64,000 bases of DNA from Thermoanaerobacteraceae bacterium (lineage in GTDB: Bacteria > Bacillota > JADQBR01): positions 1-64,000 of the forward strand of contig JACDOG010000005.1 in the NCBI GenBank assembly GCA_017656305.1, written 5' to 3'. The notes below the pieces were generated by a model, which was not told where the DNA came from, ran no database searches, and saw only the letters and a list, made by a program, of their open reading frames with translations. Below, one piece after another: positions 12,205 to 29,792 of the stretch. Every line of letters starts with the position of its first letter. Position 1 is the first letter of the stretch. Position numbers and translations under genes: made by a program.

Positions 12205-12711
12205 TTAAATCTTATCAACAATGCTGAGCAGCGTCTGTTCCGGGTCTTTATCCTTGATACCAACCCAGTACAGCCGCCTGCCTTTTTGATAATAGTAGTT
12301 ATCCAAGCCAATACCGCTGACATAATAATACGTGTGCCCGTTTAATAATTTCACCTGGTAATTGGAAAAGGCCTTGCTGTCCGGCATCTTTTCATCCATT
12401 ATTTGCAGCAGTTTAGTTGCTTCGGCCTTATTGGACGATTCCGTAACCCAGATTACCATATGGCGGCTGCCGTTCTCCGCTCCGAACATGGCAATCAGTC
12501 CCTTGTCCACTTCAATTTCCACACCATGCAGTTGGCTGATGTTACGTTTTGCTTCCTCACCAGTAACCAGTTTGATTAAAGACATACCAGCAAGTTCTTT
12601 GGGAAACTCCTCTTCACTGAGGCTCGGCAGGTCTTCCGCCTGTCCGAACAATAGCCATGAACCCAGGGCTACAACTAAAATTACTGCAACCAGTAAAACT
12701 TTTTTATTCAT
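12205..12711 (-). CDS. membrane-anchored protein of unknown function, last gene of the ccm operon
   Basis: The 168-residue product has one N-terminal membrane helix (about 4-22) that could also be a signal peptide, and then a soluble external domain. The Tyr-rich segment TYYYVSGIGLDNYYYQKGRRL is at about 127-147. There is no haem-binding CXXCH and no Cys at all. AAGGAGG precedes the ATG. It follows ccmD by 11 bases and is closed by a strong terminator, so it belongs to the cytochrome c maturation transcript. I do not recognise the family. Confidence 0.8.
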   Translation of the reverse strand: MNKKVLLVAVILVVALGSWLLFGQAEDLPSLSEEEFPKELAGMSLIKLVTGEEAKRNISQLHGVEIEVDKGLIAMFGAENGSRHMVIWVTESSNKAEATKLLQIMDEKMPDSKAFSNYQVKLLNGHTYYYVSGIGLDNYYYQKGRRLYWVGIKDKDPEQTLLSIVDKI

Positions 12712-12722
12712 CAGCCGCCTCC

Positions 12723-12854
12723 TTACCGGTCCTTAACCGCTTGCTCCAGCAGTTCAATTTCCTTAGCCAGCTTTTTCTGCCTGCTGCCCAGAAACAGTGT
12801 ATACCCAAAAATTAGTACCCAGATTAAACTATATGCCGCTACTACAGCTTCCAT
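12723..12854 (-). CDS. ccmD: CcmD-like small membrane protein
   Basis: This 43-residue protein has one membrane helix (about 4-22) and a basic, helical C-terminal tail (RQKKLAKEIELLEQAV), which is the CcmD layout. CcmD stabilises the CcmABC haem-handling complex and helps release holo-CcmE. AGGAGG is seven bases before the ATG. It lies directly after ccmC, its usual position. Identification rests on size, topology and position. Confidence 0.8.
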   Translation of the reverse strand: MEAVVAAYSLIWVLIFGYTLFLGSRQKKLAKEIELLEQAVKDR

Positions 12855-12868
12855 AAGCGAACCTCCTT

Positions 12869-13561
12869 TTAATGGCTTTTTGCCCTAAGCGTCTCTTTAA
12901 TTTTTTTCAGCCGCTCTTCCGCCTGTTCAATCAAGATTCCCTTCTGCAGCATGTAAAAATACAGGAAAGTAAAAGCTATGACACTGGCAATTAAGGCATG
13001 AAGCATCTGCGGGTGAATGCCTCCGCCCGATTCCCCAAATACCAGTGGGTGCGCCTTGGCTCCCCACCATTTTATAGCAAAAAAGACAATGGGTACATCG
13101 ATAAAGCCTATAATACCGAACACAGCAGCTAGCGTAGCTTTCTTCTGGGTCTCCATACCGGAGGCACGAATTAGTACATATGCCAGGTAAATGAACCACA
13201 GGATTAAAGTGGTGGTAAGTCGCGGCTCCCACGTCCACCATGTATTCCATGCCGCCCGGCCCCAAATGGGCCCCGTAACCAGAACTATGGTGGTAAAGAC
13301 AACACCTATTTCCGCAGAAACCTTTGCTATCGTATCCCAACGCATATTTCTAGTAATGAGATAGATAATACTGGCGATAAACACTATAAAAAAAGCAAAA
13401 AATGCATTCCAGGCAGAAGCTACGTGGAAGTAAAAAATCTTCTGTACATAGCCCATTACCCTTTCAATGGGCGCATAGATAAATGACATGTATAATGCCA
13501 CCAGAACCAGAACAAACGTTATCCATCCCAAAAGCTGATGACTTTTTGAGGGTTGTAACAT
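12869..13561 (-). CDS. ccmC: haem exporter/handling protein CcmC
   Basis: This six-helix membrane protein of the HemX/CcmC haem-handling family has 230 residues. The external tryptophan-rich segment reads WGRAAWNTWWTWEPRLTT. It corresponds to the WWD domain of CcmC, which presents haem to CcmE, but with Glu-Pro where the family usually has Asp-Ala. Conserved His residues occur in FYFHVASAW and in LHALIAS. It starts 2 bases after ccmB. Confidence 0.93.
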   Translation of the reverse strand: MLQPSKSHQLLGWITFVLVLVALYMSFIYAPIERVMGYVQKIFYFHVASAWNAFFAFFIVFIASIIYLITRNMRWDTIAKVSAEIGVVFTTIVLVTGPIWGRAAWNTWWTWEPRLTTTLILWFIYLAYVLIRASGMETQKKATLAAVFGIIGFIDVPIVFFAIKWWGAKAHPLVFGESGGGIHPQMLHALIASVIAFTFLYFYMLQKGILIEQAEERLKKIKETLRAKSH

Positions 13562-13563
13562 GG

Positions 13564-14241
13564 CTAAACCTCCAGTACATAGTCAAATAAAATAAAGGGA
13601 ACAACCAAAAAGATAACGTCATATACCGCCAGCAGTTTCACCCAACCAACAATCTGCTCAAATGCACCCTGGTTAAAAATTGTGGCAGTGGATTCCACAG
13701 CACCGATAATCACCGGAACCAGCACTGGAAAGAGAATGATGGGCAGTAAGATTTCACTGGTTCTCACATTGGCTGAAAGAGCCGCCAAAAAGGTACCGAT
13801 ACTGACAAACCCCAGGGTACCGAGAAAGATCACCAGCAGCAGCTGCAGCAGGGAACCCTCCATGCGGAAATCAAATAGCACAAAAAATACGGGCAGGGAG
13901 ATGGCCTCCGTAATGACCATCAAAATGAAATTGGTAATCACCTTACCAAAGAAAATAGCCGTACGGTCAACAGGTGCCAGCATCAAGCCCAGCAGCGTCT
14001 CATTCTGTTTTTCATTGACAAACGACCGGTTCAGACCCAAAATACCGGAAAAAGTGAAAGCTACCCAGATAATACCTGGAGACACCGCACGCACAGTTTC
14101 CCCCACCGGGTCAAAAGCAAAAGCAAAAACAATAATCACCAGCACGGAAAAAATAAGCATGGCACTAATCATCTCTTTTGTGCGGAACTCCGCCACCAGG
14201 TCTTTCCAGACAATGTTAGCTATCTTGGCTAGAAATCGCAT
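13564..14241 (-). CDS. ccmB: haem ABC exporter permease CcmB
   Basis: This 225-residue protein has six predicted membrane helices and is the permease partner of CcmA. The FNEKQNETLLGLMLAPVDRTAIFFGK-type segment (about 75-100) and the central LLPIILFPVLVPVIIGA segment are family hallmarks. In System I the CcmAB ATPase is needed to release holo-CcmE from CcmC. Start and ccmA stop overlap by one base, which means translational coupling. Confidence 0.93.
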   Translation of the reverse strand: MRFLAKIANIVWKDLVAEFRTKEMISAMLIFSVLVIIVFAFAFDPVGETVRAVSPGIIWVAFTFSGILGLNRSFVNEKQNETLLGLMLAPVDRTAIFFGKVITNFILMVITEAISLPVFFVLFDFRMEGSLLQLLLVIFLGTLGFVSIGTFLAALSANVRTSEILLPIILFPVLVPVIIGAVESTATIFNQGAFEQIVGWVKLLAVYDVIFLVVPFILFDYVLEV

Positions 14242-14924
14242 TAGCTTTCCCCCACCAGCTTCAAATAGATATCCTGCAGCTCTTCGAGGCTAAGGCTTTT
14301 ACTGGAAGCTTCATAAACTATCCTGCCGCTTACCAGGATAATAATCCGGTCGCTCATATGCAACCCCTGCTCAAAATTGTGCGTTATCATATAAATGGTA
14401 CGGTTCTGGTTGGTCAGATTAAGCAACACCTGGTTTAAAATCCCTATGGCATGCTGGTCCAACCCGGTATAAGGCTCGTCTAAAAAAAGGATATCCGGGT
14501 CATGGATGATAGCCCGGGCAATGGCCAAGCGCTGCTGCATACCCCGGGAAAAAGTACGTACCGGGTCGTTAAGGCTGTACTGCAGCCCCACTTCGGCAAT
14601 GACTTCTTTAATACGCTGCCTGACATTGGGTACATCGTACATGCGACCGTAAAAGAGCAAATTCTCGTAGGCGGTTAAGTTGCCGTACAGGAAAGTATTG
14701 TGGGAAATCACTCCCATCTTTTTCCGTAATGCCAGGGGATTCCCGGTAATCTTCTGGCCGGCGATATATACTTGTCCTTCAGATGGGGGAGTTAACAGTG
14801 TCAAAACCTTTAGTAAGGTGGTCTTTCCAGCACCGTTGGGTCCCAGGACACTAACGAACTCCCCCGGCTCAATATGCAAATTGATGTCTTTTAAAACGGT
14901 TTTTGAGCCAATGGTCTTAACCAC
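14241..14924 (-). CDS. ccmA: haem ABC exporter ATP-binding protein CcmA
   Basis: This 227-residue ATPase has Walker A GPNGAGKTTLL, the signature FSRGMQQRLAIARAI, and Walker B ILFLDEPYTGLD with TGLD in place of the usual switch. The first canonical start is the GTG at 14924, but no ribosome site stands before it. GGGGGG at 14951-14956 is eight bases from an in-frame ATA at 14942. Starting there gives MIRAENVVKTIG, the N-terminus expected for the family. So an AUA start (233 residues) is likely, or the ATG has been lost. Confidence 0.93.
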   Translation of the reverse strand: MVKTIGSKTVLKDINLHIEPGEFVSVLGPNGAGKTTLLKVLTLLTPPSEGQVYIAGQKITGNPLALRKKMGVISHNTFLYGNLTAYENLLFYGRMYDVPNVRQRIKEVIAEVGLQYSLNDPVRTFSRGMQQRLAIARAIIHDPDILFLDEPYTGLDQHAIGILNQVLLNLTNQNRTIYMITHNFEQGLHMSDRIIILVSGRIVYEASSKSLSLEELQDIYLKLVGES

Positions 14925-14955: not shown

Positions 14956-16005
14956 CTAACCAGCCAATTCTTTCAATTTTGCCTTGACTTTTACCAGCTT
15001 TTTCTTGTAAATTTCTCGGAGCTGTGTGTAGGTTTCTTCATCCACCTCACCGTTGGCATACTGTATTTCCAGTTCTTTCAGCTTGTTCATCAGCACTTTT
15101 TGTTTTTTGACCAGTCTCTGGAACAATTCTTCCTCCTCGTCTGTTTCCGTAGCCAATTCTGCAGCTTCCTGCGTGCGCCGGTAAAGGGCATAACCAATAG
15201 CACCAGCTGGAACAACAATTACCAGGAAGAGAAACAGGTGTGCATCCATTCCGGCAAAAGGCGACTGTTTCCAAAAACGGATGTGCCCCGGTGTATGAAA
15301 CTTGGGAGCCTCCCGGGTTACAGCCCCGGAATAGCCACCAGAGTTATCCTGTCCTCCAGCTGACTCATCGGCCATGCTGATAATGGCTCTAATTTCCATC
15401 TTAGTCCCCGGCTTTACGTTATCCGCGGCATGGAACTGGTACTGCATGCCACCCATGTTCTGAACGCCGCCGCTTTGCAGCTCACTGCTGATTATTTTCA
15501 TGCCTTGAGCCGGCGCCAGGACAAAATACGACTGGGTGGGATAGTTAACGGTCTCCGAAATTATAAAGTGCGGAGCAGTCCCCTCGGAAAAAGTTTCCAT
15601 GACATAACTGAAACCTATCATGGTTTCCCCTGCTGGAAGCTGCTTGATAATTATACTGTCTTCTTCTACCTGCACCATATCTTCATTCAAATCGTGGAAA
15701 AGCTCCAGTTCCCGATATCCCAACGGCAGTGTAATAGTAACAGTTTTTCCTTCAGGCAAGGCTTCACCGGGATTATAGATTACCAGCTGTTCCTTGACGG
15801 TTAAGGTCCGGTCATCGTTGGGAGATAATAACAAGTGGTGAACCTTCACAGAAATCTTGCCAGCCTCACCGGCAACAGCCTCTGTTGCCACAGCACCGTC
15901 AGCTGCATCACCGGCATTCCCCTGCTCTTCAGCAAAGGCCGGCAGTGAAGTCGCCAGCAAAAGAAGTGCCGTAACTAAGACAGCAAGTGTTTTCCGAAAA
16001 CTCAT
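14956..16005 (-). CDS. secreted, membrane-tethered protein with C-terminal short helical domain, ccm-associated
   Basis: The 349-residue product has a signal peptide (about 1-25, ending AFAEE), a beta-rich external domain (about 50-210) and a linker. One membrane helix follows (about 247-270), then a cytoplasmic C-terminus. The tail KELEIQYANGEVDEETYTQLREI resembles the short SHOCT-like helical modules found at protein ends. A similar architecture appears in the first gene of this operon, and a similar tail in the CcmI-like gene upstream. There is no haem motif. It may position haem-handling or apocytochrome partners at the membrane, which is inference. Family not recognised. Confidence 0.8.
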   Translation of the reverse strand: MSFRKTLAVLVTALLLLATSLPAFAEEQGNAGDAADGAVATEAVAGEAGKISVKVHHLLLSPNDDRTLTVKEQLVIYNPGEALPEGKTVTITLPLGYRELELFHDLNEDMVQVEEDSIIIKQLPAGETMIGFSYVMETFSEGTAPHFIISETVNYPTQSYFVLAPAQGMKIISSELQSGGVQNMGGMQYQFHAADNVKPGTKMEIRAIISMADESAGGQDNSGGYSGAVTREAPKFHTPGHIRFWKQSPFAGMDAHLFLFLVIVVPAGAIGYALYRRTQEAAELATETDEEEELFQRLVKKQKVLMNKLKELEIQYANGEVDEETYTQLREIYKKKLVKVKAKLKELAG

Positions 16006-16040: not shown

Positions 16041-16442
16041 TTATTTACCCTTGTTTTCCTGCTTAAGTTTTTGTACTTCTCGTTCGATTTCCTGCTCAAT
16101 TTCCTTTTCCAATTCTTTCTCCAGGTCTTCCATATCGCCGTCATCAATCAAGTCTAGTTCCTGCTCTTCTGCCTTAAGTAAAGCAACGGCCTGTCGCTTG
16201 TACATTGCTTTCAGTTTTTCATAATCCTCTTTGGAGAGCTTTTTCATCCGGTAATCAAACTCTATTTCTCCCAGGGTAATAAATACGGATTCCTTTTGCT
16301 TTTCCAGGGAATCTTCCGCGTCATAATCCAAACTGCGATCCAGCGATTTGACCTCTTCCTCATCTTTAATTAAGGGGTAACCGACAAGAAATACTGAGAC
16401 CATTACAACCAGCACGCCCAATACCAGTGAAAACCCAGACAA
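16041..16442 (-). CDS. CcmI-like small membrane protein
   Basis: The 133-residue product has one N-terminal helix (about 4-22), a cytoplasmic segment with LGEIEFDYRMKKLSKEDYEKLKAMYK (about 55-82), and a long Glu/Lys-rich coiled-coil tail. The middle segment matches the short conserved motif of CcmI N-terminal proteins, which help present apocytochrome c to CcmFH. The TPR part of classical CcmI is absent. The start is a TTG with GGAGGG upstream. It lies between ccmH and the 349-residue gene. Confidence 0.7.
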   Translation of the reverse strand: MSGFSLVLGVLVVMVSVFLVGYPLIKDEEEVKSLDRSLDYDAEDSLEKQKESVFITLGEIEFDYRMKKLSKEDYEKLKAMYKRQAVALLKAEEQELDLIDDGDMEDLEKELEKEIEQEIEREVQKLKQENKGK

Positions 16443-16501: not shown

Positions 16502-16987
16502 CTAGTAATATTTCTTGATCTCCTCATCTACCAGTTCCTCGTACTCTGCCAGGTCCGCCTCATCAATTAATACGGTATCGCTTTCTGCCGTTTTCCTGTA
16601 AAATACCCATTTGTCCAAAGCCGTATATATCAACAAGCCGCCGCCGAGAATGGCCAGAAACGGTGTCACCCATGCCGCAATGTTAAACGGGATACTGGCC
16701 GGTGGAGCAGCCATAACTTCTTCACCGTAAATACTAATCATGTAACCGTAAATCTGTTCCGGAGTCATGCCTTCCTTTAGTTTCTGGCGGATTTCCGCCC
16801 GCATTTGCTGGGCGGTAGCATTGTCGCAGGATTTCAGATACATCCCACAACCGTCGGTACACATCAAGTTGGCCTCAATTTCCTTAAATAGCTTTTCGTC
16901 TACCACGTACTCCTCTGCCAGGGCAGGGAGAGCAAATACAAGATTTAACAGCAAAACAGCAAGCAGCAAAATAACCTTTTGCCTCAC
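16502..16987 (-). CDS. ccmH: CcmH/CycL-type apocytochrome thiol-handling protein
   Basis: The 161-residue product has a signal peptide (about 1-24), a helical external domain and one C-terminal membrane helix (about 107-128). The family motif is normally LRCxxCQ. Here it reads LMCTDGCGMYLKSC with Cys43, Cys47 and Cys54, a CX3C spacing with a third Cys. The following MRAEIRQKLKEGMTPEQIYGYMISIYGEEV is classic CcmH. It keeps the haem-ligation partner of CcmF, but with altered thiol spacing. The GTG start is supported by GGGGGAG. Confidence 0.88.
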   Translation of the reverse strand: MRQKVILLLAVLLLNLVFALPALAEEYVVDEKLFKEIEANLMCTDGCGMYLKSCDNATAQQMRAEIRQKLKEGMTPEQIYGYMISIYGEEVMAAPPASIPFNIAAWVTPFLAILGGGLLIYTALDKWVFYRKTAESDTVLIDEADLAEYEELVDEEIKKYY

Positions 16988-16999
16988 AAAACTCCCCCC

Positions 17000-18997
17000 T
17001 TACTGGGTGTATTTAGGCCCCAGGCGGCTGCCTTTACCGGGCCAGACTGCAAAAATAGTGCCCAGTACCAACAAGTAGCCGCCAATCCACATCCAGCTCA
17101 TCAACGGGTTGACATTAACCTTGAAAGTAGCGCTGGTTACAGACTGGGTTTTCTCATCCCATTCCCAGGTAGCAAGAATCACATATAAATCTTCAGCCAA
17201 AGTTCCGCGAATTGCCACTTCCGTACCGGGCTGTTGCCAGTTTTTGTAAAATACTTTTTCCGGAGTAATGGTGCCGATGTGTTTACCGCCTTTCACCACC
17301 GGCATTTCCGCATACACCACAGCATTTGCTCCTTCTCTTTTCTCCATCAGCCCGTTATAAGTCAAGGTATAGTCCCCAATAGTAATTGTCTCGCCCGGTT
17401 TTACCTGCTTAGTAACTTCCAGCTTGTAACCGTAAGAACCGATAACCGCCAGCACGATGAAAACGATACCCAGGTGGACAATATAGCCCCCATACCGGCG
17501 GCGATTACGTACCGTGAGCCGCCCTAAAGCCGTAAGGTAACCCTCTCCCGTCATCCGGTGGCGAACTACCGTACCACGGTAAAATTCCTGAACAATGGTC
17601 AAAATGACAAATGCACAAACCGCAAAGGCAACAGCACCATAGAGTTGCCTGCCGGGCAGGTAGAAATAAAGCACTACTCCAATGACTGCCGCAATCAGCA
17701 GCGGCCACATGAAGTTGTTACGCAGGTTCTTCAACGAAGAGCGCTGCCACGCTATTAAGGGACAAATTCCCATAACAAATACCATTGCCAGCAATATGGG
17801 TCCGTTGACCTGGTTGAAGAAAGGTACACTGACCGTCACCCTGACGCCTCGAACAGCTTCGGAAATTAGCGGGAAAATGGTCCCCCAGAATGTCGCAAAG
17901 GCAGCACCGACCAGCAGCAGGTTATTTACCAGGAAACTGCTTTCTTTGGACAGATAGGATTCAAATTGATTACCCTGCTTTAGCAAGTTAATGCGGTCAA
18001 TTAACAGGTACAGGGACACCAGCGCCACAAAGCTCATGAATATGAGGAATACAGTACCCAATCCGGGGTTGCTGGCAAAAGAGTGGACTGACTGCAGCAC
18101 CCCACTGCGCGTCAGGAACGTACCGAAAATAGTGGACAAGAATGTGACAATAATCAATGCCATGTTCCAGATCTTCAGCATATCCTTACGCTCTTGAATC
18201 ATTACCGAGTGTAAAAATGCCGTTCCTGTCAGCCATGGAATAAATGAGGCGTTCTCCACCGGGTCCCAGGCCCAGAAGCCGCCCCAACCCAATTCCACGT
18301 AAGCCCACTGGGCACCGTACAGGTTACCGAGACTGAGAAACATCCACGCAATTACCGTCCACCGTCGGGTTACCTTAATCCAGCTGTCGTCAACTTTTTT
18401 CAGAATTAAAGCGGTGATGGCAAATGCGAATGGAACTGCAAAACCAACATATCCCAAATAAAGCGTCAACGGGTGGAACACCATACCCGGATTCTGCAGC
18501 ATGGGGTTAAGACCGGAGCCTTCTGCGGGCACGTAACCGAACTTCTGTACGGACTTGATAAACGGGTTGGCAAAAAACAGCATCACAAATAAAAAGAACA
18601 GGTTATTAAATGTCAAAATGGCACTGACATAGGGAAGCTTTCCATCTTGCTCATGCTTCTTGGAAAATGTAATGATAGCCGTATAAATGGCCAGCACCCA
18701 GGACCACAGTAGCAAAGACCCCGAGTTGCCCGCCCAGAAGGCTGAAAATTTGTAGAATAAAGGCAGGTCAGTACTTGTATACTGAGCCACGTAAGCAATA
18801 GAAAAGTCACTGGCAACCAAATGATAAATTAATATAAACGAGGCCGTAGTTACCAGCAAGCAGATGGCAGCTACGCCGCCTTTGGCACTGTTTTTCAGTT
18901 TCCGGTTACCAGTTTTTATGGCAATAACAAAAGCTATTATAGTATAAATACTAATTGTCAGCGCTAAAATCAGTGATAAATAACCTAGGTCAGCCAT
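17000..18997 (-). CDS. ccmF: cytochrome c haem lyase subunit CcmF
   Basis: This 665-residue polytopic membrane protein catalyses the final attachment of haem to apocytochrome c together with CcmH. The WWD signature is intact (ELGWGGFWAWDPVENASFIPWL, about 235-256). About 14-15 helices are seen, with a large external domain near the C-terminus (about 520-640). AGGAGG precedes the ATG. The length is normal for the family. It lies between ccmE and ccmH, 12 bases before ccmH. Confidence 0.95.
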   Translation of the reverse strand: MADLGYLSLILALTISIYTIIAFVIAIKTGNRKLKNSAKGGVAAICLLVTTASFILIYHLVASDFSIAYVAQYTSTDLPLFYKFSAFWAGNSGSLLLWSWVLAIYTAIITFSKKHEQDGKLPYVSAILTFNNLFFLFVMLFFANPFIKSVQKFGYVPAEGSGLNPMLQNPGMVFHPLTLYLGYVGFAVPFAFAITALILKKVDDSWIKVTRRWTVIAWMFLSLGNLYGAQWAYVELGWGGFWAWDPVENASFIPWLTGTAFLHSVMIQERKDMLKIWNMALIIVTFLSTIFGTFLTRSGVLQSVHSFASNPGLGTVFLIFMSFVALVSLYLLIDRINLLKQGNQFESYLSKESSFLVNNLLLVGAAFATFWGTIFPLISEAVRGVRVTVSVPFFNQVNGPILLAMVFVMGICPLIAWQRSSLKNLRNNFMWPLLIAAVIGVVLYFYLPGRQLYGAVAFAVCAFVILTIVQEFYRGTVVRHRMTGEGYLTALGRLTVRNRRRYGGYIVHLGIVFIVLAVIGSYGYKLEVTKQVKPGETITIGDYTLTYNGLMEKREGANAVVYAEMPVVKGGKHIGTITPEKVFYKNWQQPGTEVAIRGTLAEDLYVILATWEWDEKTQSVTSATFKVNVNPLMSWMWIGGYLLVLGTIFAVWPGKGSRLGPKYTQ

Positions 18998-19081: not shown

Positions 19082-19504
19082 TTACTTTTGCAACTCCCCA
19101 TTCATTTCCTCAATGCTGCCAGCTTCGTACTTTGAAGGACACTTGGTAGTCAACTTTTCGGCCTTAAAGACATTTTCCTCTTTATCATAGAAACCTTCTA
19201 AAATGACCTCTGTAGCATCATCAAAATTGTCCGGCTTAACATCATTATAAATGACAGGCAGTTTATTTTTCCCATCTGTCACTGTAAACGCAAGCTGAAC
19301 CTTGTCCCCATCAAACTTGACACTGTCACCTACCAGTTTACCCGGAACCATTAAGTACTCACCGTCATAATCTTCTTCTCCCGCTACCAAATCAGTAATA
19401 GTCACCTGATACCCGGCAAAATTGGAAAAGCCAGAAAACATCAAGTAACCAACGGCAACAACGATAATCAATACCCCGACAAAAATCTTCGTGCTCTGCT
19501 TCAA
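19082..19504 (-). CDS. ccmE: haem chaperone CcmE, CXXXY variant
   Basis: This is a membrane-anchored OB-fold protein of 140 residues (helix about 7-27). Classical CcmE binds haem covalently through His in HXXXY. Here the motif is Cys122-Pro-Ser-Lys-Tyr126, the CXXXY type described from Desulfovibrio and archaea (System I*). The TTG at 19504 is chosen because GGGGG lies eight bases upstream and the product then begins MKQSTKIFVG. It is the second gene of the ccm operon, between the 328-residue protein and ccmF. Confidence 0.92.
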   Translation of the reverse strand: MKQSTKIFVGVLIIVVAVGYLMFSGFSNFAGYQVTITDLVAGEEDYDGEYLMVPGKLVGDSVKFDGDKVQLAFTVTDGKNKLPVIYNDVKPDNFDDATEVILEGFYDKEENVFKAEKLTTKCPSKYEAGSIEEMNGELQK

Positions 19505-19525: not shown

Positions 19526-20512
19526 TTATTCATCAATCTCTTCCAGCAGCTTTTTATAAGTATCCTCACTTATCTTCCCGTCTAAAAGCATTTTGCGTAA
19601 CTTCCGTTTTTCCTCTGCCACTTCCTTCCTGCTAACGCCGCCCTGTTTACCTTTTAAGCTCTTAGTTTTTTTACCGCCTTTTTTAGATTTAGATTTCTGA
19701 GTAGCTTTTTGATTGTTATTACTGATGGCTATAAACAGGAATACTGCCAGCAGTGCAATAAACACTACAAGTAGGATAACAATTGTAGAATTGACAGAAG
19801 ACTGCGCCTGTACCGGCTGCATACCGCCGGCTACGTTTCCTTGTCCGGTCTCTGCTTTTACGGAAGGTTCATTGCTTTCTCTGACATAACTTATGTCAAA
19901 AGTCAATTCATCTTCAACCGTCAAGCCATTATACCGGTAGATATAATTGGTAAACCCTTCGTCATCCCCCTGGGTTTTTGCAGGTTCCGGCTGTAAAGAT
20001 ACCTCTGTTGCCCCCTTGGGCGCTTTAATTTCCACGGTCAGGTTTTCTACAGGGAAAGCAGGTCTGAAGGTCTGCGTAAACTGTCTGGGATTGGCTGAGC
20101 CAAAAGGCCTGTAGTAGTACTCCATCATTACAGGGAATTCTGCTCCAGGCTCAATAGGATGAGAGGGTTTCCAGACCACCACATCGTAGTCAGGATTGTC
20201 CTTCTCAACTATGTATTTTTGGCAAACCATCCCTTGTTCAGTTTCACAAACCATATTTATCTCCGCGTTTTTGGGAACCTTGTACCGCAGCTCCCCGTCA
20301 AACGGCTTGCCGGTATCATTGACGAAAACGCCCGTGTAGATAACCAACACGTCCGGCCACCGGTCATATTCCGGCCAAATGGAATAATAGAGCTGCTTCA
20401 TGGTCATTGTCTTCGTTTCTTCTGCAAAAACCGGAACTTGCGGCACCAGTGCCACAATCAGTGCTATCAGCAACGCAAAGACCAATAGCTTTTTCTTTCT
20501 TCCGCCTGCCAT
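19526..20512 (-). CDS. secreted, membrane-tethered protein of unknown function, first gene of the ccm operon
   Basis: The 328-residue product has a signal peptide (about 1-30, ending PVFAEE), a beta-rich external domain with one Cys pair (CETEQGMVC), a membrane helix (about 246-268) and a Lys-rich linker. A short C-terminal helical module follows (KRKLRKMLLDGKISEDTYKKLLEEI). Layout and tail echo the 349-residue gene of the same operon. The ATG at 20512 is chosen because of GGAGG upstream; the open frame continues to 20677 but without a good start. It follows a strong promoter with a BlaI-type operator 240 bases upstream. Function unknown. Confidence 0.82.
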   Translation of the reverse strand: MAGGRKKKLLVFALLIALIVALVPQVPVFAEETKTMTMKQLYYSIWPEYDRWPDVLVIYTGVFVNDTGKPFDGELRYKVPKNAEINMVCETEQGMVCQKYIVEKDNPDYDVVVWKPSHPIEPGAEFPVMMEYYYRPFGSANPRQFTQTFRPAFPVENLTVEIKAPKGATEVSLQPEPAKTQGDDEGFTNYIYRYNGLTVEDELTFDISYVRESNEPSVKAETGQGNVAGGMQPVQAQSSVNSTIVILLVVFIALLAVFLFIAISNNNQKATQKSKSKKGGKKTKSLKGKQGGVSRKEVAEEKRKLRKMLLDGKISEDTYKKLLEEIDE

Positions 20513-29105: not shown

Positions 29106-29792
29106 CTACCTCAACGCCAAACTGATGTAATAAAGCCCCAGAACGACCAGAATCAGACCGCTAATGGTATTTAACACGTGACCCCACTTTTGCATAGTAG
29201 CCATCTTTTTCAGTAACCCCGTAAAAGTACCGACCAACAGCAGCGGGAAACCGTGGCCCAGGCCATAGACAAATAGCAGTGCACCACCGCCCAACAGCTG
29301 GCCCTTCGTTGCCACGTATGCAAGAATTACAGCCAGAACAGGCGTTGAACAGGCCGAAGCCACCAGCCCGAAAAACAGGCCTACCAGATATGCCCCGATA
29401 AGGCCGCGTTTTCGCGGTGCCACCAGGTTCAGCGTAGGCCAGTTTATCTGGTAGAAACCCATGAGGTTGAGCCCCATGGCTATGGCCACTGCCGCCATAA
29501 AGTAATACCACCCGTCACCTATACTGCCAAAGACGGTACCTAAAGATGCCGCTACCAACCCCATGATACTGAAAGTAGTTGCCAGGCCAAGGCTGAAGGC
29601 CAACGACAGAACAAACCCCCGGCCTTTGGAAGCCTCACCGTATCCGCCGACGTAAGCCACCAGAACCGGGACCATGGACAGTACGCAGGGGCTGAGACTG
29701 GTAGCTATCCCGCTGAGATAAATTATCAGGAAAGTAGTAACAGTTATCTGGTCAATGGCCTGCGGCACCAGTTGTGAAAATGCATCCGGCAT
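29106..29792 (-). CDS. ccdA: CcdA/DsbD-type thiol-transfer membrane protein
   Basis: This 228-residue membrane protein has six helices. CcdA carries reducing equivalents from cytoplasmic thioredoxin across the membrane, for apocytochrome c and other external thiols. The two conserved Cys occur in SPCVLSMVPVL (helix 1) and SACSTPVLAVIL (helix 4). It lies between the SCIFF maturase and the molybdoenzyme with gaps of 14 and 4 bases. It would also fit the cytochrome c maturation system encoded 10 kb away. Confidence 0.9.
   Translation of the reverse strand: MPDAFSQLVPQAIDQITVTTFLIIYLSGIATSLSPCVLSMVPVLVAYVGGYGEASKGRGFVLSLAFSLGLATTFSIMGLVAASLGTVFGSIGDGWYYFMAAVAIAMGLNLMGFYQINWPTLNLVAPRKRGLIGAYLVGLFFGLVASACSTPVLAVILAYVATKGQLLGGGALLFVYGLGHGFPLLLVGTFTGLLKKMATMQKWGHVLNTISGLILVVLGLYYISLALR

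Follow-up and report, generated by a model that had tools for sequence, protein, structure and literature searches.

The operon described here lies on the minus strand of the window, by which we mean the whole 64,000-nucleotide stretch of DNA that was analysed. We conclude, with a probability of roughly 85%, that it serves bacterial cytochrome c maturation by System I* and that its CcmH forms a separate subtype, a reading drawn from gene order, profile matches, alignments and trees; the identity of the system alone is near certain. The genes run in the order s-ccmE-ccmF-ccmH-i-a-ccmA-ccmB-ccmC-ccmD-x, with ccmA, B, C, D, E, F and H all within one operon, and the order s-ccmE-ccmF-ccmH-i-a-ccmA-ccmB-ccmC-x is complete or nearly so in about two dozen loci from many families. 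Concrete genes for testing are offered by the CcmH clade, which is marked by a cysteine site peculiar to it, and by a genetically linked partner whose cysteines co-vary with it. In the literature searched, mostly without subscription papers, we found no description of this clade together with the partner set s, i and a, and the CcmH subfamily and its accessory set are apparently undescribed.

All coordinates that follow for this operon are on the minus strand. The first gene, s (19529..20512; stop codon 19526-19528), was assigned the start ATG 20512 by choice, the listed open reading frame extending to 20677, and codes for a signal/transmembrane segment, an ectodomain, a transmembrane helix and a C-terminal SHOCT-like cytoplasmic hairpin. 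It is followed by the cysteine-type ccmE (19082..19504; PF03100, E 3e-23), by ccmF (17000..18997; PF16327, PF01578 and TIGR00353), coding for the holocytochrome c synthase with the motif WGGFWAWDPVEN, and by the ccmH variant with Cys43-X3-Cys47-X6-Cys54 (16502..16987; PF03918, alignments and a tree). Two further genes come before ccmA: i (16041..16442), conserved in the operon and coding for one transmembrane helix plus a cytoplasmic helical segment, and a (14956..16005), for which an alignment, an AF2 model and a fold search delineate an ectodomain, a juxtamembrane motif, a transmembrane helix and a cytoplasmic hairpin. None of s, i and a has a Pfam or NCBIfam match above cut-off. The ABC ATPase gene ccmA (14241..14924) is identified by Pfam and NCBIfam models and by its place beside ccmB (13564..14241; PF03379), and ccmC (12869..13561; PF01578, TIGR01191) by its models and its WWTWEPRLT motif. 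The operon closes with x (12205..12711), conserved in this 3' position in many relatives.

Between ccmC and x there is a ccmD (12723..12854; 43 aa, MEAVVAAYSLIWVLIFGYTLFLGSRQKK...) with a strong Shine-Dalgarno sequence. A similar small open reading frame is found behind ccmC in most relatives, and at the matching place in Metabacillus it is annotated 'CcmD family'; such a gene is too short for the usual ORF lists. The initial annotation lacked ccmD and the three conserved accessory genes and, outside the operon, ccdA, two further CcmH genes and the System II that the genome also encodes. It did draw attention to a CcmE with Cys122-Pro-Ser-Lys-Tyr126, a CcmH with CX3C plus an extra cysteine and a CcmC with Glu-Pro, and all three are present in the sequence; they are not chance features, because Cys122, Ser124 and Tyr126 of CcmE and the cysteines of CcmH are invariant in homologues.

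The CcmH protein matches PF03918 with an E-value of 1e-20 and 73.9 bits against a cut-off of 25. In the alignment the LRCxxC active site is absent, the corresponding site reading LMC43TDGC47GMYLKSC54DN, and the third cysteine falls on the canonical Ser position. Since the Pfam model matches both forms, we file the protein, on its alignment, as a variant and not as a canonical CcmH. None of C43, C47 and C54 varies among 15 homologues picked for the CX3CX6C form together with five-cysteine relatives. In the tree, a branch supported at 100/97 sets the CX3C proteins apart and another, at 100/99, the LRCxxC proteins, so the claim that CcmH is altered is borne out and the CX3CX6C protein is, as far as this phylogeny goes, a real variant in a clade apart from LRCxxC. 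A CcmH profile scan of genome contigs, made with a narrower alignment, returned 15 loci, of which 14 are titled Bacillota, Firmicutes, Clostridia or Thermincola and one Deferribacteraceae.

Several cysteine forms of CcmH occur in the phylum, namely LRCxxC, CX3CX6C, CxCGCx6CxC, CPAC and PDFCGxxLxxC, the last having lost the first cysteine. LRCxxC CcmH is also found with cysteine-type CcmE in the phylum; canonical CcmH thus coexists with cysteine CcmE, and the type of CcmE therefore does not dictate the type of CcmH. Of the three CcmH copies in the genome studied here, two are CX3C and one is PDFCG. A second cluster (L141:7445-9654, contig C1) holds an s paralogue, a CX3CX6C CcmH and an FtrD-like (PF10080) protein, and it is possible that this cluster is a CcmH-FtrD system outside cytochrome maturation. 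The third CcmH (L142:7053-8361, contig C2) lacks the first cysteine (PDFCGKALVDC) and adjoins a TPR protein; several more genomes of the phylum have a CcmH of this form.

Does the altered site reflect selection or decay? The alternative that fares best, though we consider it unlikely, is that this System I* is of the ordinary kind and its CcmH has degenerated; the changed spacing and the extra cysteine would then be drift in a protein that System I* can spare, as Desulfovibrio and archaea show, and s, i and a would be scaffold without thiol chemistry. A PF03918 protein is present in 41/79 CcmE-bearing genomes of the phylum and none was found in 38/79, CcmH forms without the cysteine site exist (L045, L154), and PMC3601427 indicates that System I* can function without CcmH, all of which would suit dispensability. 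However, invariance of C43, C47 and C54 across a clade spanning many families is unexpected under drift, and so is the manner in which a cysteine pair in s is kept in step with CcmH.

This pair, Cys89 and Cys97 (numbering from ATG 20512), is exofacial and near-invariant in the alignment of the s ectodomain. It is present in 22/22 sampled loci with a CX3C or CxCGC CcmH and missing in six loci where CcmH either is lacking from the operon or does not have that site (the Cys-less rows were checked in the alignment), giving a Fisher p of 1.5e-5 uncorrected for relatedness; three of the six Cys-less loci are from one genus, so that they represent about four independent cases. Three s fragments at locus ends, which stop short of the cysteine positions, were left out of the count. 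There is one exception, L072, where the pair stands beside a CcmH lacking the first cysteine. The co-variation holds at the level of the operon only, as the genomes of L038, L061, L092 and L096 hold CcmH genes elsewhere. No s was seen beside any LRCxxC CcmH, several of these loci being covered with short flanks only, and none was found beside the CcmH form described here at L044 and L164, so s is not universal there. Outside the operon, s and ccmH occur as a pair once more in the genome under study.

With a System I* operon carrying its own CcmH subtype as the preferred reading, a working model can be outlined. On the established picture of System I and System I*, which covers haem loading, transfer by CcmF and thiol control by CcmH and CcdA, CcmABCD would export haem and load it onto Cys122 of CcmE by a thioether bond, with Tyr126 the likely iron ligand, CcmF would pass the haem from CcmE to the apocytochrome, and CcmH would hold the CXXCH thiols of the apocytochrome reduced. 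For the variant, we infer a three-cysteine (C43/C47/C54) thiol-disulfide switch, for which the exofacial cysteine pair of s could be the exchange partner in place of CcmG, with CcdA as the electron source, and s, i and a may jointly do the work of CcmI, as scaffold subunits or by holding the apocytochrome. A thiol relay of CcmH with s is a tentative proposal. More doubtful is the wider proposition that CX3CX6C CcmH and s would constitute a dedicated relay replacing CcmG and LRCxxC CcmH in multihaem-rich Firmicutes, with a as an extra haem- or apocytochrome-handling subunit, and hence a holocytochrome synthase of new composition.

Neither a thioredoxin-like open reading frame nor a CcmG gene is present in the operon. 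Matches to the Redoxin model in the genome number only two, both on other contigs and in frames 108-111 aa long, and one of these reads as a plain thioredoxin. The sole DsbD/CcdA (PF02683) match in the genome is ccdA (29106..29792, minus strand; E 4e-29), which lies within the window, and CcdA probably supplies reducing power across the membrane. The many multihaem cytochromes of the genome are an obvious load for the operon: the paired-CXXCH model gives 99 matches at E<=1 on many contigs, the strongest well above the family cut-off. A complete System II pair, CcsA with a WWD-type motif plus ResB (L190:3904-6131, contig C24), is found beside a multihaem protein; given that this ResB/CcsA system coexists with the operon, not every cytochrome need depend on the latter. 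Related operons occur in Thermincola-type bacteria, where multihaem cytochromes serve Gram-positive extracellular electron transfer.

Proteins s and a share a layout and a fold class, in that each has an exported beta domain, a transmembrane helix and a cytoplasmic helical hairpin. The AF2 models (pLDDT 81 for s and 79 for a) place both beta domains near the M1 aminopeptidase N-terminal domain and ribophorin I, these matches being to non-redox folds with low TM-scores of about 0.3-0.44. The hairpin resembles SHOCT. Most members of the a family, though not those from Bacillales, have a conserved FHxxxHxxxWxxSP......H just before the transmembrane helix, and it is a guess that this motif might suit contact with haem or a metal. 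Protein i comprises 133 aa, has no TPR and resembles the N-terminal part of CcmI in layout, but it matches no CcmI model and we do not claim it as a CcmI homologue. Some i proteins (L044, 4848-5327, and L073, 4970-5455) finish with a zinc-ribbon-like tail, CxxC...CxxC (CHRCGAVLKEVGQEYCHACG).

A metal-binding role has also to be weighed for CcmH itself, whose three cysteines, like those of the five-cysteine CxCGCx6CxC relatives, might bind a metal or an Fe-S cluster instead of exchanging thiols. The CxCGCx6CxC spacing does resemble a metal site, and the second CcmH of the genome adjoins the FtrD-like protein. On the other hand, the forms reduced to CX6C by loss of the first cysteine are read more easily as a redox pair, and no homologous metal protein was found; we regard metal binding as improbable.

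The remaining question is how far CcmE and CcmC set this operon apart. Read directly from the DNA, CcmE has ...LTTKCPSKYEAG... with the motif CPSKY, its Cys codon at 19141-19139 being residue 122 from TTG 19504 or residue 125 from GTG 19513. Cys122, Ser124 and Tyr126 are invariant among 22 diverse homologues, and the best PDB match, 2KCT, is a CcmE with a cysteine at the same place. Covalent haem on a CcmE cysteine is known from other organisms. The gene was found in 83 of 398 genomes searched from the phylum, where the cysteine motif is present in 81/81 CcmE loci examined and HXXXY in 0/81; CPSKY predominates, with CPSRY, CPTKY, CPDHY, CPSRF and others also occurring, and CPSKY is found on two Bacillales plasmids as well. 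The 92 CcmEs placed in a tree divide at a single branch (100/99 support) into 83 cysteine-type sequences and nine HXXXY rows, the latter drawn from the K-12 strain of E. coli and from plasmids, which together represent few phyla. The genome (2.7 Mb, 99.95% complete) contains no second CcmE and no HXXXY CcmE, so the possibility that an HXXXY protein backs the cysteine-type one is ruled out. The assignment of CcmE to the cysteine type therefore withstands both the search for a second gene and the phylogeny. Cysteine-type CcmE is the norm for the phylum, and the core of the finding was already known: in Stevens 2011 (PMC3601427), System I* is a variant System I with a cysteine CcmE, CPSKY is the majority motif and firmicutes are among the carriers. 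The same paper puts CcmH in about one third of these System I* bacteria, and absence of CcmH is therefore not characteristic.

In CcmC, WWTWEPRLTT has Glu-Pro where E. coli has Asp-Ala. This change, noted in the initial annotation, is present but not distinctive, for the phylum varies at these positions (DPRLT 23, DPRQT 15, EPRLT 10, with DPRET occurring too), and the published motif, WXWDXRLT, leaves the residue after Asp free (PMC10457321); the motif counts mark Glu-Pro as common, ordinary variation. The suggestion that cysteine CcmE, CcmH and an unusual CcmC together define a rare and distinct Firmicute subtype is thus very improbable and, as to rarity, refuted: its three sequence features are real, but every CcmE sampled from the phylum is of the cysteine type, the co-occurrence of this type with CcmH has been published (PMC3601427) and the CcmC change is ordinary, so that the CcmH part alone stands.

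Set against known systems, the operon belongs with System I* as presented in the consulted parts of Stevens 2011 (PMC3601427), with which it shares CPSKY CcmE, CcmABCF and an operon in which no CcmG gene is apparent, CcmH being optional there; those parts do not mention a CX3CX6C CcmH or s, i and a. Like the archaeal CcmABCEF of Methanosarcina acetivorans (PMC9084895), it has a CXXXY CcmE, the cysteine of which was found in that 2022 study to be required for haem attachment, but the archaeal set is without CcmD and CcmH, both of which are present here. It has in common with E. coli System I (CcmABCDEFGH) the homologues of CcmA-F and H, with CcmD behind CcmC, whereas E. coli has an HXXXY CcmE (KHDENY), a CcmH with LRCPKC and TPRs, and CcmG in the operon. 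System I* reportedly also figures in work by Allen in 2006 and Goddard in 2010. The CcmH of Pseudomonas and E. coli (2HL7 and 2KW0) belongs to the same family as ours, which aligns with 2KW0 locally, over approximately residues 29-97, but those proteins have CxxC and a conserved Ser where ours has CX3C and a third cysteine. Finally, the related ccm operons of the Bacillaceae Metabacillus and Cytobacillus (L191 and L192), which are on large plasmids, have CPSKY CcmE and the order E-F-H-i-a-A-B-C, and in Metabacillus a CcmD is annotated as well; they differ in that a small protein of SHOCT type (51 aa in Metabacillus) stands where s would be, and in having a CX8C CcmH and a TlpA-type gene.
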